DNA from: Pseudomonadota bacterium
GTDB lineage: Bacteria > Pseudomonadota > Gammaproteobacteria > Acidiferrobacterales > Acidiferrobacteraceae
Assembly (NCBI GenBank): GCA_021777535.1
Contig: JAJYDN010000025.1
Location: forward strand, 1 to 32,822
Length of the DNA: 32,822 nucleotides
Reading direction: 5' to 3'
A program made the translations under genes and the position numbers. Shown piece after piece: positions 26,448 through 32,822 of this stretch. Under the pieces are notes generated by a model. That model was not told the DNA's origin and ran no database searches. It saw only the letters and a program-made list of their open reading frames with translations. How positions within the stretch are numbered: the stretch's first letter is position 1; every line of letters starts with the position of its first letter.

Positions 26448-27566
26448 ATGGTGGCGTTGGCAAGGGATGCCCGGGTGCTGGTCGTGCGGTTGGGCGGCAT
26501 CCGGGACGTAATCATGGTTGGGCCTGCCGTGCGGGCACTGAGAAACCGGTGTCCGGCGGCGTGGATTGGTCTGTGGGTGTCGGCGGCCGGGCAGGCGGTG
26601 GCGCGGTGCCTGCCGGGGGTCGACGAGATTCTGGTGGGAACCGAGTCGCGCATAGAGGGTGCGGACGGGGCTGCGGCCGCCGAGGACGCGCAGGCAGCCT
26701 TGGCGGCGCGCGAGTTTGCGGCGGCCTTCATTTGCACCAACGCGGGAGAGACGCCGTATGGGTCCGCGTTCGCGGCCTATGCTGCGGGTATTCCAGTGCG
26801 CGTGGGGCAGTCAGGGGAGTTCGGCGGCGCCCTGCTGACCGAATGGGTCAGGCCCTTTCCGGATGAGGGCCATCCGGTGGACCGGAATCTGCACCTTTTC
26901 GCGCAAGCCGGTATACCGTCCGGATCGCGTGAGGTGCGGCTCACGGTAGCGGCTGCCGCCCATTGGCGGATCCGGGCCCTCTTGTGCAACAGCGGTGTGC
27001 AGGGTCCGTTCGTGGCGGTCGCGCCTGGCGGCACATGCGAGGCGCGCCGCTATCGGGTGGAGAGCTATGTGCGGGTCTTGCGGCTGCTAAGGGCGCAAGG
27101 TCTGGCGGCCGTTGTGGTGGGGGGCGCAGGCGACAGCGCGCTCGGGACCTTCCTTGCCGCCGCGGTACCCGGCACGGTTTCCTTGTGCGGGCGGCTTGCG
27201 TTCCCCGAGATCGTGGCCCTTCTCGGGCGTGCCGGCGCCTTTCTCGGCCAGAACACGGGCCTCATGTATGTTGCTTACGCGTTGTCGCGGCCGATGGTGG
27301 TTCTCTATGCCGGAACCGAATGTCCGCCGCAATGGCTCTGCCGCGCAAGCCAGGTGACGCTTCTGGCGAGAGCGGTTCCCTGCGTGCCCTGCTATGGGCT
27401 CACCTGTGCGCGCGGGCAGGCCTGTCTTGCCATCGATGCCGTGGAAGTGGCCGCTGCCGTGATGGCGCGGACCGAAGGCCTCCGCCGGCCGGTGCGGACT
27501 CACCTGCGCCGCGTGCCGGCCAGCGGGGGCGTGTTTTGCGCTTCGCGCCACCGCCTAGGCGAATGA
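26448..27566 (+). CDS. Glycosyltransferase family 9 (heptosyltransferase-like) protein
   Basis: The protein (372 aa) has the two-Rossmann-fold layout of GT9 enzymes, such as the ADP-heptose:LPS transferases WaaC and WaaF that act in the cytoplasm on inner-core lipopolysaccharide. The N-terminal motif VVRLGGIRDVI (12-22) has the catalytic-type Asp at 20, but Arg stands where Gly is usual before it. The C-terminal half has APGGTCEARRYRVESY (192-207) and GAFLGQNTGLMYVAYALSRP (263-282), with QNTG where GNDSG is usual. A cysteine cluster (C312, C315, C320, C326) is typical of some family members. GAGG (26437-26440) lies 7 nt before the ATG. The donor sugar and acceptor cannot be told. The last 12 bp overlap the pirin gene tail to tail. 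Confidence 0.8.
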   Translation: MVALARDARVLVVRLGGIRDVIMVGPAVRALRNRCPAAWIGLWVSAAGQAVARCLPGVDEILVGTESRIEGADGAAAAEDAQAALAAREFAAAFICTNAGETPYGSAFAAYAAGIPVRVGQSGEFGGALLTEWVRPFPDEGHPVDRNLHLFAQAGIPSGSREVRLTVAAAAHWRIRALLCNSGVQGPFVAVAPGGTCEARRYRVESYVRVLRLLRAQGLAAVVVGGAGDSALGTFLAAAVPGTVSLCGRLAFPEIVALLGRAGAFLGQNTGLMYVAYALSRPMVVLYAGTECPPQWLCRASQVTLLARAVPCVPCYGLTCARGQACLAIDAVEVAAAVMARTEGLRRPVRTHLRRVPASGGVFCASRHRLGE

Positions 27567-28424
27567 TCCTTCGCGGAAGTCCTGGATCGCCTGGTAGATC
27601 TCCTGTTCGTTGTTCATGACGAAGGGTCCATACTGGGCAATCGGTTCGTTCAGCGGCTGCCCGGCTATGAGTAGTGCCCGGGCATCCGTGGCGGCCGTCA
27701 GTGTGACGCCATCGGCCTGCGGATCATTGCGCAGAATGGCCATGTGCTGGGCCGCCACCGTGTCCTTCCCGATCTGCACGCTGCCGCGATAGACGTAGAC
27801 GAACGCGTTGTGGCCGGCCGCGAGGGTCTGCGCGAACTGTGTCCCCGCCCGCATGTGCACGTCCAGATACAAGGGCGCGGTGGTCTTGCGGTTCACCGCT
27901 CCGCCGACCCCGTGGCTTTCACCCGCGATGACGGTGACGGCGACACCGTCCTCCGTTTCGAAGCGGGGGAGGTCCTCCTGTGCAAAATCCTGGTACCAGG
28001 GGGTGGCCATCTTGTCGCGCGCCGGCAGATTCAGCCACAGCTGGAAGCCCTCCATGACACCCTCCTTTTGCTGAGGGATTTCGGAATGGATGACACCGCG
28101 CCCGGCGGTCATCCATTGCACGCCGCCGCTTTCAAGAAGGCCCTCGTGACCCGCACTGTCGCGGTGACGCATGCGGCCGGCGATCATGTAGGTCACGGTT
28201 TCGAAGCCCCGGTGGGGATGATCCGGAAAACCGGCGATGTAGTCGTCGGGGTCATCGCTGCCGAAGGCATCGAGCATCAGAAATGGATCGAGGCGGCGCT
28301 GGAGTGACTGGCTGAGTACGCGCGTCAATAGGACGCCGGCGCCATCAGAGGTCACTTTGCCCATGACAAGCTGTTCGACCCGCCGGCTGTTGCCAACATG
28401 CTCCTGTTTGCGGATGTCGCTCAT
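27555..28424 (-). CDS. Pirin family protein
   Basis: The protein (289 aa) is a bicupin of the pirin family; members bind Fe(II), and E. coli YhhW and human pirin act as quercetin 2,3-dioxygenases in vitro. The metal ligands are visible as H69, H71, H113 and E115, in FPDHPHRGFETVTYM and GRGVIHSE. The C-terminal cupin and the ending QYGPFVMNNEQEIYQAI are typical. The ATG at 28424 has a strong GAGGAGG just upstream. The gene lies 41 bp downstream of azoR on the same strand, so the two are probably one transcript. The physiological substrate is unknown. Confidence 0.9.
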   Translation of the reverse strand: MSDIRKQEHVGNSRRVEQLVMGKVTSDGAGVLLTRVLSQSLQRRLDPFLMLDAFGSDDPDDYIAGFPDHPHRGFETVTYMIAGRMRHRDSAGHEGLLESGGVQWMTAGRGVIHSEIPQQKEGVMEGFQLWLNLPARDKMATPWYQDFAQEDLPRFETEDGVAVTVIAGESHGVGGAVNRKTTAPLYLDVHMRAGTQFAQTLAAGHNAFVYVYRGSVQIGKDTVAAQHMAILRNDPQADGVTLTAATDARALLIAGQPLNEPIAQYGPFVMNNEQEIYQAIQDFREGSFA

Positions 28425-28465
28425 TTTTGCCTCCTCACGATCGAGGTCTCTATGTTCCGGCTCCG

Positions 28466-29065
28466 TCAGCCGAGTGCTGCGGCGATGTCCGCGTGCGCCT
28501 CGGCAAATCCCTGCTCCGCCGCTTCCGGTCCCATGTTCAGGCCTTCCGCGTAGATGAAGTGGACGGCCGTCATGCCGAGGAAACCGAGCACGGTCTTCAG
28601 GTAGGGCACCTGGCTGTCGGTCTCGGTATTGCGATACCGTCCGCCCCGCGCAAGCCCCGCGTAGACTGTCTTGCCGGTCAGAAGACCCTCTGGACCCTTG
28701 TCTGTGTAGCGGAAGGTCACCCCGTTGCGCGCGATGGCGTCGATCCAGTTCTTAAGCTGCGCCGATACGCCAAAATTGTACATCGGGACCCCGAGGACGA
28801 TGACATCGGCGGCCTGTGCCTCCGCGATCAGCGCATCATCCTGGGCCACCCGCGCGGCCTGCGCCGCGTTGCGCTGTTCGGCGGGCGTCCACAGGGCGCT
28901 CAAAGCCGCTTCGTCGAGGGGTGGATGGGGGTGGGTCGCCAGATTGCGCAGCGTGACATGGGCAGCCGGGTGCGCGGCGCGCAGCCGCGCCACGATGCTG
29001 TCGGCGACACGCGTGGAATTGGCGCCTTCGCGGCGGGCGCTGGCGTTGATCTGCAATATGTGCAT
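28466..29065 (-). CDS. azoR: FMN-dependent NADH:quinone oxidoreductase / azoreductase
   Basis: AzoR enzymes are cytoplasmic flavodoxin-fold homodimers that reduce quinones and azo bonds by two electrons with NAD(P)H. This protein (199 aa, E. coli 201) shows the FMN-binding PMYNF (94-98), the conserved [19 protein letters not shown] (114-132) and the RGG loop (140-142). The frame is open upstream to 29164, but the ATG at 29065 is chosen: AGGAG lies 7 nt upstream and [11 protein letters not shown] matches the family start. Longer forms would run into the divergent promoter region. Its likely operon partner is pirin and its likely regulator the divergent LysR-type gene. Confidence 0.93.
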
Positions 29066-29092
29066 GGCAAGCTCCTGGATGCATTGAGTGGG

Positions 29093-29126
29093 CTTTAGCC
29101 TACTATGTGCCATTGCTGGACTAAAG
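29093..29126. promoter_or_regulatory. CTTTAG / CTAAAG dyad in the azoR-lysR region
   Basis: CTTTAG (29093-29098) and CTAAAG (29121-29126) are perfect inverted halves separated by 22 nt, and adjoining CC and GG add further symmetry with a 1-nt bulge. It sits just upstream of azoR. LysR-type proteins often bind two sites in a divergent region, one for recall and one for activation. Assignment as such a site is inference. Confidence 0.35.
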
Positions 29127-29145
29127 ACACAATAATGGGTATTAT
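29117..29145 (+). promoter_or_regulatory. Candidate lysR promoter
   Basis: TGGACT (29117-29122, 4 of 6) and TATTAT (29140-29145, 5 of 6) are separated by 17 bp. Transcription would start near 29152, only about 4 nt before the lysR ATG at 29156. No convincing promoter was seen for azoR on the opposite strand; the best is CATAGT with a poor -35. Confidence 0.45.
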
Positions 29146-29148
29146 TGT
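29129..29148. promoter_or_regulatory. Perfect 8-bp dyad over the lysR -10 box (operator candidate)
   Basis: ACAATAAT (29129-29136) and ATTATTGT (29141-29148) are perfect inverted repeats around GGGT. The right arm covers most of the predicted -10 box (29140-29145). Such a site would suit autorepression by the LysR-type product together with control of azoR. The centre does not fit the classical T-N11-A spacing (it is T-N10-A), so the binding protein needs testing. Confidence 0.5.
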
Positions 29149-29155
29149 TCCTTGA

Positions 29156-30088
29156 ATGGAACAATATAGCCCCAACGACCTTTTAATCTTCGCGCATGTG
29201 GCGCAAGCCGGCAGTTTCAGCCGCGCCGCCGAGCGGATCGGTCTGCCGAAATCCACCGTATCCCGGCGCATTGCCGTGCTGGAGGATGCCTTGGGCGAGC
29301 GCCTGATCCTGAGGACGACCCGGCGGTTGCGGCTCACGGAATTCGGCCAGGAGATGCTCGAGTATGCCCGCCAGGTCGTTGCCGGCGTCGACGCCGTCAA
29401 GGCACTGAGCGAGCATCGGCAGGTGCGCCCGAGCGGCGCGTTGCGGGTGTCGATGCCAAGCGACTTTGCCCAAATCCTGCTCACCGAAATGCTGGCCGCC
29501 TTTGCGGCCCTGCACCCGGCCATCTCTCTGGAACTCGATCTCTCGCCGCGCCACGTCGATCTGCTCGGCGAGAATTTCGATCTGGCGGTGCGGACCGGCG
29601 CGTTGCCCGATGATTCGCTGCTGGCCGCCCGGCGCCTTGCGCAATTGCCGTGGGGGCTTTACGCAGGACCGGCCTACCTCGCGGATCGCGGGGAGCCGCA
29701 GACCCCGGAGGCGCTCACCAGACACGAATGTCTCACCTTGCTTGGGCGGGACAGGGAACCGATCCCCTGGGTCTTGTGGCGCGGCAAGGAGCGCTACGAA
29801 AGGGCGCCCGGCCGCCTTGCCGGCAACTCGCCCGAACTCATTATGAGTCTCGCTTCCGCCGGTGCGGGTATCGCGGCGGTCCCGGTGTGCTTTGCGGCAC
29901 CCCATGTCCGTGCCGGCCGTCTGCGGCGGGTATTGTCCGCCTGGGCGCCGCCCCCATCGACGGCATGGGCGGTGTTTCCCGGGCGCCGGCTCATGCCCGC
30001 GAAAACGCGGGCCTTCATCGACATGCTGGAGGCGGTGTTTTCGCGGATGGACGCCGATGCGGCCGGGGTGTCTGTCGGTGTGCCCTGA
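29156..30088 (+). CDS. LysR-type transcriptional regulator
   Basis: The protein (310 aa) has an N-terminal winged helix-turn-helix (about 6-63, with [21 protein letters not shown] as recognition region) and a LysR substrate-binding domain (about 90-295). It most resembles the CrgA/PecT-like subfamily in layout. It is divergent from azoR-pirin, the usual arrangement for a regulator and its target. The start is fixed: the in-frame codon just before the ATG (29153-29155) is a TGA stop, and the helix-turn-helix begins at once. No Shine-Dalgarno precedes it, and the candidate promoter would give a leader of only a few nt. The co-inducer is unknown; a quinone or phenolic is a guess from the neighbours. 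Confidence 0.93.
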
Positions 30089-30263: not shown

Positions 30264-32822
30264 CTAGGCCATCACGGCGTCGCGTTCTACCAGACGGCGG
30301 ATCTGCTCCTGGTCTACGGGCTTGCTGAAGAGGAAGCCCTGCGCTTCGTCACAACCCTGGGCTTCGAGGAAGTCCAGTTGCGCGCGGGTCTCGACGCCCT
30401 CGGCGACGACTCTGAGATCCATGGTGTGGCCAAGTGAGATGATCGCTGCCGCGATTGCCCGGTCGCCCGGGTTCTCGGGGACATCCTGCATCAGGGACCG
30501 GTCTATTTTCAGGGTATCCACGGGCAGCCTTTTTAACTGGCTCAACGAGGAGTAACCAGTACCGAAGTCGTCGATGGCGATATGTACCCCCAGAGCCCGG
30601 AGTTGCCGCAGGGTTTCGACGCTGCGTTCGGTCGTGTAGAGCGTGCGTTCGGTTATCTCGATCTCCAGGCGGAGCTCGCCCGGACACAAGCCAAGCTCCT
30701 TCATCGTCGCCTGTACGGTGCCGGCCAGATCGCCATCCAGAATCTGGCGTCCCGACAGGTTGATGGCGACCCTGAGGTGCGGCTGGCCCGCGCGCCAGGC
30801 CGCCGCCTGCGCACAGGCTTCGTGCAGAACCCAGTCGCCAATGGGATCGATGAGCCCCGTCTCCTCGGCCACTGACAGGAACATATCCGGATTGACCAGG
30901 CCTCTTTCCGGGTGCTGCCAGCGCAAAAGCGCCTCTACGCCTGCGATCTTCCCGGTTTTGATGTCCAGAAAGGGCTGATAATGGAGAACAAACTGTTTTT
31001 TTGCGAGGGCCTGGCGCAGCGCGTTTTCGAGGGCCAGATGCTCGAGCGCCCTGCTCGTGAGTTCCTTGGTGTAGAACTCGTAGGTATGCCGTCCCCGGTC
31101 CTTTGCCTGGTACATGGCGGCGTCTGCGGTCTTGGCCAGATCATCGGCCGTGCCTGCGTCATCCGGAAAGATGCTGATGCCGATACTGGGAGATGTCACC
31201 ACCTCACGGTCATCGATCGTGATCGGCTTGCGAAACGCCTCGAGAATCTTGTTGGCGAGAATGGCGGCATCCTCCGGGTGCGCAATGTCATCGAGGATGA
31301 TGGTGAATTCGTCACCGCCGAGCCTTGCCACGCTGTCTTCCGCCCGCACGCATCTTTTGAGGCGCGCCCCCACCACCTGCAACAGTTTGTCTCCTGCAAT
31401 ATGGCCCAGCGTATCGTTGATGCGCTTGAAGTGATCGAGATCGAGGAAAAGAAGTGCCACTTTGTGTGTATGCCGCTTGGCGCGCTGGAGCGCCTGTTCG
31501 AGAGTGGCGGCGAATGCGAGCCGGTTGGGCAAGCCCGTCAGGGCATCGTGATGAGCGAGCTGCCGCAGCTGTTCCTCGGCCTTTTTGATGAGGCTTATAT
31601 CGGACAAAACCGCGACATAGTTCGTGATATGGCCCTGGTCGTCCTTTACGACGCTGATGTTCTCCCAGGCCGGGAACATTTCCCCGTTCTTCCGGCGGTT
31701 CCAGATTTCCCCCTGCCATTGGCCGTCCCGCTCGAGCGTCTCCCAGAGAGACTGGTAAAACGCCGCATCGTGCTGTCCGGATTTCTGCAGGCGCGGATTT
31801 TTGCCCACCACTTCTTCTGCCGTGAACCCGGTAATGGTCGTGTAGGCCCGGTTCACGGCAACAATGTTCCGGTTGGCGTCCGTAATCAGGATCGCCTCTA
31901 TGGTGCCATCGAAGACCGTGGCGGCCTGCCGCAGTTGCCGTTCGGTTCGTTTGCGCTCACTGATATCGACAAAGGTTGTGACCGATCCGACCACCGTTCC
32001 GTTGCGCCGTATGGGATGGGAGCGGTATTCCACATCGAACGACGAGTTGTCACGGCGCCATAGGCGATCGTTATCCGAGTAAAAGTCCTTGTCTTCGAGG
32101 AACGCCTGAACCATGGGGCAGTGGTCTTCGCGGCAGGTGGTGCCATCGGGCATGGCATGATGGATGAGGGCGTGGATGGGTTTGCCGATCAGCTCACCGG
32201 CGGTGTCGTAACCGAGCAGGTGCAGCCCCGCCGGGTTGATGAATATGCAGTTGCCGCGCTTGTCGACACCAAATACCCCTTCAGCGACGGACTCGATGAG
32301 GAGGCGGAACCGTTCTTCGCTTTGCCGAAGCGCCTCTTCAATGGCCCGGCGCTCCGTGATGTCGGTAAATGTCACGACTGCTCCGGCGATCTTCCGGTTC
32401 TTCAGGATCGGGCGGGAGTGGTACGAAACCGCGAAGCTCGTGCCATCCCCGCGCCAAAAGACCTCGTCGTCGACGACATAATCGCGGCCCTCGCGGAAGG
32501 CCCGCTGTATGCGGCATTCCCCGTCGGGCAAGGGTGTCCCGTCTGCGTGGCTGTGGTGCAAGATGGCGTGCAGATTCTTTCCGAGAAGGTCATGCGCATC
32601 GGTGTAGCGCAGCAGGCGCAGGGCCTCCGGATTCAGGAAGGTGCAGTTTCCATCCACGTCCATGCCATAGACACCCTCCCCGACCGAGTCGAGGATCATA
32701 CGCACCCGAGCCCGCGCCTCGCGCAAGGCGGTGATGTCACGGGATACGACGATCACGGCCTCGACATGGCCTTGCGCATCGAACTCAGGGACGAGCCGTG
32801 CCTGAAAAAAGCGTTCCTTGCC
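30264..32822 (-). CDS. Multi-PAS GGDEF-EAL cyclic-di-GMP enzyme (5' end outside window)
   Basis: The visible 852 residues are the C-terminal part of a larger protein; the frame stays open to the window edge. Domains in order: the tail of a PAS domain (1-33), PAS (about 40-158), PAS (168-290), PAS (298-412), GGDEF (about 418-580) and EAL (about 595-845). The diguanylate cyclase motif GGDEF (502-506) and the inhibitory RxxD site, RAED (493-496), are intact. The phosphodiesterase motifs EALLRW (630-635), DDFGTGYSS and VVAEGVET are also intact, so both activities are possible. The second and third PAS domains are similar and share an HH-x12-C motif at the same spacing. No transmembrane segment is visible in this part. 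It is convergent with lysR. Confidence 0.95.
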   Translation of the reverse strand, partial: GKERFFQARLVPEFDAQGHVEAVIVVSRDITALREARARVRMILDSVGEGVYGMDVDGNCTFLNPEALRLLRYTDAHDLLGKNLHAILHHSHADGTPLPDGECRIQRAFREGRDYVVDDEVFWRGDGTSFAVSYHSRPILKNRKIAGAVVTFTDITERRAIEEALRQSEERFRLLIESVAEGVFGVDKRGNCIFINPAGLHLLGYDTAGELIGKPIHALIHHAMPDGTTCREDHCPMVQAFLEDKDFYSDNDRLWRRDNSSFDVEYRSHPIRRNGTVVGSVTTFVDISERKRTERQLRQAATVFDGTIEAILITDANRNIVAVNRAYTTITGFTAEEVVGKNPRLQKSGQHDAAFYQSLWETLERDGQWQGEIWNRRKNGEMFPAWENISVVKDDQGHITNYVAVLSDISLIKKAEEQLRQLAHHDALTGLPNRLAFAATLEQALQRAKRHTHKVALLFLDLDHFKRINDTLGHIAGDKLLQVVGARLKRCVRAEDSVARLGGDEFTIILDDIAHPEDAAILANKILEAFRKPITIDDREVVTSPSIGISIFPDDAGTADDLAKTADAAMYQAKDRGRHTYEFYTKELTSRALEHLALENALRQALAKKQFVLHYQPFLDIKTGKIAGVEALLRWQHPERGLVNPDMFLSVAEETGLIDPIGDWVLHEACAQAAAWRAGQPHLRVAINLSGRQILDGDLAGTVQATMKELGLCPGELRLEIEITERTLYTTERSVETLRQLRALGVHIAIDDFGTGYSSLSQLKRLPVDTLKIDRSLMQDVPENPGDRAIAAAIISLGHTMDLRVVAEGVETRAQLDFLEAQGCDEAQGFLFSKPVDQEQIRRLVERDAVMA

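Follow-up and report, generated by a model that had tools for sequence, protein, structure and literature searches.

A perfect 22-bp dyad centred on the start codon of a LysR-type regulator gene (lysR) is very likely the operator of this regulator, as its conservation in related loci indicates. From the sequence we further infer that the regulator, bound at 29144-29165, would activate the divergent azoR-pirin genes and block lysR itself, a reading we hold to be likely, with a near-leaderless lysR mRNA as a probable part of it. Coordinates refer to the window, i.e. the whole analysed stretch of 32,822 nucleotides (Table 1).

The azoR-lysR locus and its relatives

The lysR product carries an N-terminal HTH_1 domain (PF00126, residues 7-65, E 3.9e-21) and a C-terminal LysR_substrate domain (PF03466, residues 91-295, E 1.4e-38), both above the gathering score, and is a LysR-type regulator by this composition. 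The ATG at 29156 is not in doubt as the true start, since an in-frame stop directly precedes it and the HTH domain extends from residue 7 onwards. This stop, TGA at 29153-29155, had already been pointed out in the initial annotation; a stop at the same place was noticed in only three other loci (L076, L090 and L074), and its adjacency is incidental. By direct reading, 90 nt separate the ATG of azoR (ending at 29065, minus strand) from that of lysR (plus strand). azoR is divergent from lysR in 77 of 84 loci, as a proposed target sharing a short intergenic region with the regulator gene, and the pirin gene lies behind azoR in 62 of the 64 loci with room for it.

azoR and lysR (27555-30088) appear to be horizontally acquired. 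For azoR, 40 relatives gave no match at E 1e-40. For lysR, a cut-off of E 1e-50 left matches in just 3 of 59 relatives, with 34-40% identity. The closest proteins are about 71-74% identical and mostly from Rhodocyclales. At 30264-32756 lies a converging gene, whose GGDEF-EAL product carries three PAS domains.

Searching GTDB genomes at the protein level yielded 80 relatives, and two genome searches added L114-L117 and L119. Rows L002-L010 (paralogues), L080 and L085 (N-terminus unaligned) and L110-L113, L118 and L120 (duplicates of earlier loci) were dropped, and a relatives search around the Oceanisphaera locus yielded no loci beyond this set. For promoter-box counts, the 83 relatives were reduced to 66 at <85% identity, 56 of which are canonical. 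The LysR of one MAG labelled Pseudolabrys (L058) and that of Thauera aminoaromatica are identical in the tree, which probably reflects a binning error.

Table 1. Features of the azoR-lysR region (window coordinates)
Feature	Position	Strand	Remark
pirin-family gene	27555-28424	-	behind azoR; probably co-transcribed with azoR
azoR	28466-29065	-	FMN-dependent azo/quinone reductase of the Flavodoxin_2 family; proposed target of activation
azoR Shine-Dalgarno, AGGAG	29072-29076	-	by sequence
Second noted dyad, 6-bp arms	29093-29126		real; as a dyad not conserved
Predicted azoR -10	29097-29102	-	conserved place; TAGGCT in window, TAnnnT in 55/56 relatives
Alternative azoR -10, CATAGT	29102-29107	-	in window
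Weak lysR -35-like, TGGACT	29117-29122	+	4/6 match; not conserved
AAG.C block (AAGCC in relatives)	29124-29128		position of azoR -35 / activation-binding site
First noted dyad	29129-29148		real, private to window genome; right arm overlaps conserved half-site
Predicted lysR -10, TATTAT	29140-29145	+	predicted TSS ~29152, 4-nt leader
Putative operator, ATTGTTCC-N6-GGAACAAT	29144-29165		perfect dyad, 22 bp, centred on lysR start codon, into codons 2-4
lysR	29156-30088	+	LysR-type regulator, 310 aa; ATG start within the conserved putative operator

The dyad at the lysR start codon

Column statistics over 61 non-redundant relatives place the information in four blocks, namely the azoR -10, AAGCC, GGATAAC and the dyad. 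At least 12 of the 16 consensus positions of the dyad are present in 78 of 79 loci (window included), with 25 loci, the window among them, matching all 16, and its place relative to lysR is the same in 73 of the 79. In L088, the one locus outside the 78, the dyad is farther upstream than this search reached. The arms in the window extend to a perfect 9 bp (TATTGTTCC, 29143-29151; GGAACAATA, 29158-29166); when the gap and 12 further nt were shuffled 5000 times, 19 of the shuffles contained some perfect 9-bp dyad with a loop of 3-10 nt. T-N11-A is read directly within the dyad at 29148-29160 and 29149-29161. The AAGCC block consists of A 98%, A 95%, G 61%, C 69% and C 80% over the 61 relatives, and the window has an A at 29127.

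A different operator had been proposed in the initial annotation, i.e. the perfect 8-bp dyad ACAATAAT-GGGT-ATTATTGT at 29129-29148, whose right arm covers 29141-29145 of TATTAT, with a second site nearer azoR at 29093-29126. Both dyads exist, the second as a perfect 6-bp pair CTTTAG/CTAAAG (29093-29098/29121-29126). Of 5000 dinucleotide shuffles of the 90-nt gap, 34 contained some perfect 8-bp dyad with a loop of 3-10 nt, making the first dyad uncommon yet not compelling. At aligned positions over 83 relatives, however, these two dyads keep means of only 2.1/8 and 1.6/6 pairs, against 6.7/8 for 29144-29165, and the left arm ACAATAAT is private to the window genome, absent from the conserved blocks and matched at best in 6/8 positions, once. 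It is therefore very improbable that these two dyads form the operator. What stands of that proposal is that the putative operator overlaps the lysR -10/+1 region, which makes autorepression of lysR likely, albeit through the start-codon dyad; this conserved dyad, and the placement of the site primarily relative to azoR, had been overlooked.

The dyad might be a by-product of a protein that needs MEQ at its N-terminus, and MEQ is indeed conserved in most orthologues. The synonymous choice, though, is nearly fixed as well: all 66 Glu codons at position 2 are GAA, where each gene's own codon usage predicts 28.1, and 63 of the 70 Gln codons at position 3 are CAA, where it predicts 13.3. These cases are non-independent through relatedness, so that p-values are not literal. 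The bias is much weaker near the starts of other open frames of the same loci (GAA 22/37, CAA 21/61). Furthermore, the non-coding left arm is likewise conserved, the HTH domain only starts at residue 7, and the dyad is kept outside the MEQ frame or the gene in L081, L082, L088, L114, L115 and L116. In L081, L082 and L088, the likely lysR start is downstream of the right arm, and in L114 and L116 the bases of this arm are read in another frame. A protein need for MEQ, which loci with a moved start already contradict, was rejected and has next to no probability left. An RNA hairpin as the selected element was also rejected: compensatory changes on both sides of the stem were found in none of 84 loci for seven of the eight pairs and in one case for the remaining pair, with individual pairs being non-Watson-Crick in 5 to 25 of these loci.

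The spacing of the dyad is set from the azoR side. From dyad to azoR -10 anchor, 47 bp are found in 69 and 48 bp in 5 of 77 loci (74/77), the exceptions being the window (42 by anchor score), L075 (46) and L078 (52); despite this score, the TAnnnT hexamer TAGGCT of the window is located at 47 by direct reading. With respect to the lysR reading frame, the dyad ranges from -12 to -299; the lysR start has shifted by up to ~300 bp with the azoR spacing kept, which suggests that the site is placed for azoR. With the predicted azoR start taken 7 nt beyond the -10, the dyad lies at -54 to -75 and has its T-N11-A near -65 of the predicted target start, as for a LysR site.

Compared to 76 relatives, the azoR -10 of the window (29097-29107) is degenerate or shifted by 5 bp, and is poor at the conserved place, while its lysR -10 resembles the consensus more closely than does TAACAT, the common form. 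After transfer, the two promoters may have drifted in strength.

In the proposed mechanism, the regulator would occupy the 22-bp dyad, at about -54 to -75 from the predicted azoR start. A LysR tetramer at this standard place would reach the AAG.C block near -35 and, upon binding an inducer, activate azoR-pirin; the inducer is perhaps a quinone-like electrophile, a guess from the enzymes. The same site covers the edge of the lysR -10, the predicted transcription start, the start codon and codons 2-4, and its occupancy would repress lysR.

A wide regulon was rejected. In 20 genomes, 14 of the 18 places with at most two mismatches are at the lysR-azoR locus, and the other four do not exceed the seven hits of a reversed-pattern control; in the source genome, 29144-29165 is the sole perfect site, the next best having two mismatches. 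An azoR match beside lysR is lacking in seven of the 84 loci, each of which still retains at least 12/16 dyad positions. In two loci (L048 and L049), the start-codon dyad is perfect and azoR is absent; upstream, the other strand holds open frames (458 aa and 252 aa) whose N-termini are similar and signal-like, and the regulator may here have taken on a new target.

Transcript start of lysR

RNA polymerase probably begins lysR about 4 nt before the ATG, and a near-leaderless mRNA with a predicted 4-nt leader is, on the evidence below, the somewhat favoured reading. TATTAT ends exactly 10 nt before the ATG, as previously indicated. TAnnnT is found at its position in 42 of the 56 non-redundant canonical relatives, compared to 13 for the next-best position in lysR direction, and no other conserved lysR-direction -10 was detected at any position in these 56. 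The leaderless transcript suggested in the initial annotation keeps the sole conserved -10-like box in this direction, but would be near-leaderless at best. A conserved lysR -35 was not found (mean match 2.93/6 vs 2.46 in shuffled sequences). At the predicted start, 4 nt before the ATG, 73% have a purine and the window a T; this signal is ambiguous, since an A at -4 also extends the dyad.

As expected for leaderless genes, no Shine-Dalgarno (<= -4.4 kcal/mol) precedes any of 72 canonical lysR starts, in contrast to 72 of 77 azoR starts. The window follows this pattern (-3.7 kcal/mol for lysR vs -6.6 for azoR), so its missing Shine-Dalgarno had been correctly described. It is no independent sign of leaderlessness, however, and its loss alone no proof, because the operator would fill the Shine-Dalgarno position. 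Relatives with a start 21 nt upstream have one in 6/6 cases (one clade, about one event). Among the downstream-start loci, L081 has one (-7.4) and L082, L088, L114, L115 and L116 do not. These start-moved classes are few independent events: the tree requires three changes, of which a single one accounts for the upstream-start clade and the other two for the downstream-start group. The -10-like box is kept in four of five non-redundant gamma upstream-start relatives, there inside the coding region, and as TAnnnT in one of five downstream-start relatives. Since it persists where the start lies upstream, part of its conservation may be due to the operator and not the promoter. In one locus (L040), lysR starts with TTG, which is awkward for leaderless translation.

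In an RNA with a longer leader, a hairpin would form over the AUG (median -8.4 vs -2.8 kcal/mol; window -11.2 kcal/mol), which, together with the lack of another conserved -10, bears in favour of a near-leaderless lysR. The same hairpin could be turned around: with the same operator, lysR might be transcribed from farther upstream, giving an SD-less leader whose start codon sits in the loop of a AUUGUUCC/GGAACAAU hairpin and whose poor translation keeps lysR low. The strength of this fold in the window agrees with such a course, as do the box kept where the start lies upstream and a near-leaderless promoter without a conserved -35. Nevertheless, the stem shows essentially no compensatory changes and has non-Watson-Crick pairs in part of the loci, and an upstream promoter would have no conserved -10 of its own; we regard an upstream transcript as rather unlikely.

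Returning to the near-leaderless mRNA, a more far-reaching version can be drawn up, in which one 22-bp site would act at three levels, namely activation of azoR, a block of lysR transcription and the coding of residues 1-4. Only the near-leaderless transcript would be translatable, because a longer read-through RNA would fold a copy of the operator over the AUG, and the SD-less start would be an operator-imposed stable state left by start relocation in at least some lineages. Taken as a whole, this version is unlikely.

Significance and comparison with known systems

The codon choice and the lack of a Shine-Dalgarno would both arise because a binding site occupies the start region. The locus would thereby offer a clean case of an operator fixing a start region, with the relocated-start relatives as a natural experiment. 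For a large regulator group, mostly from Rhodocyclales and relatives, it also provides a specific prediction of the operator and of azoR-pirin as the target set. A literature search of open PMC papers returned no paper on the azoR-pirin-lysR group, on leaderless LysR genes or start codons covered by a LysR operator, or on Azoarcus transcription starts. Divergent LysR pairs with autorepression are textbook knowledge.

Divergent LysR pairs with autorepression are also stated in PMC5648196, and the azoreductase regulator of PMC3223726 is of AsnC type and unrelated. Leaderless, self-regulated regulators with operators at the 5' end are already published. According to PMC3017554, AcuR of Rhodobacter sphaeroides has a TATTAT -10 just before the regulator ATG, no Shine-Dalgarno and an 8-bp inverted-repeat operator with n6 over the promoter, to which the predicted -10 box, the missing Shine-Dalgarno and the putative operator of the window correspond; lambda cI and Tn1721 tetR are cited there as further leaderless examples. 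AcuR is, however, a TetR-family protein repressing its own operon, with a zero leader proven by 5' RACE, whereas the regulator of the window is LysR-type and divergent, its 4-nt leader being a prediction from sequence. The AnsR operon of Corynebacterium glutamicum (PMC9145765) likewise has a leaderless regulator mRNA and an inverted-repeat operator at its 5' end, but AnsR is described there as a repressor of its own operon and not as a divergent LysR activator.

Among LysR-type systems, LysG-lysE of Mycobacterium tuberculosis (PMC5648196) has an inverted repeat in overlapping promoters within a 108-bp divergent region, with binding proven by gel shift; the leaderless transcript reported there is that of lysE and not of the regulator. 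PltR-pltL (PMC3382589) is likewise a divergent pair with a 22-bp palindromic lys box and T-N11-A, located at -74 to -53, compared to the predicted -75 to -54 for the azoR dyad. The putative azoR site differs from it by its 8-bp arms (9 in the window), its 6-bp spacer and its position over the regulator's start codon. The system is of an ordinary kind, but the putative operator and the start codon overlap unusually tightly.
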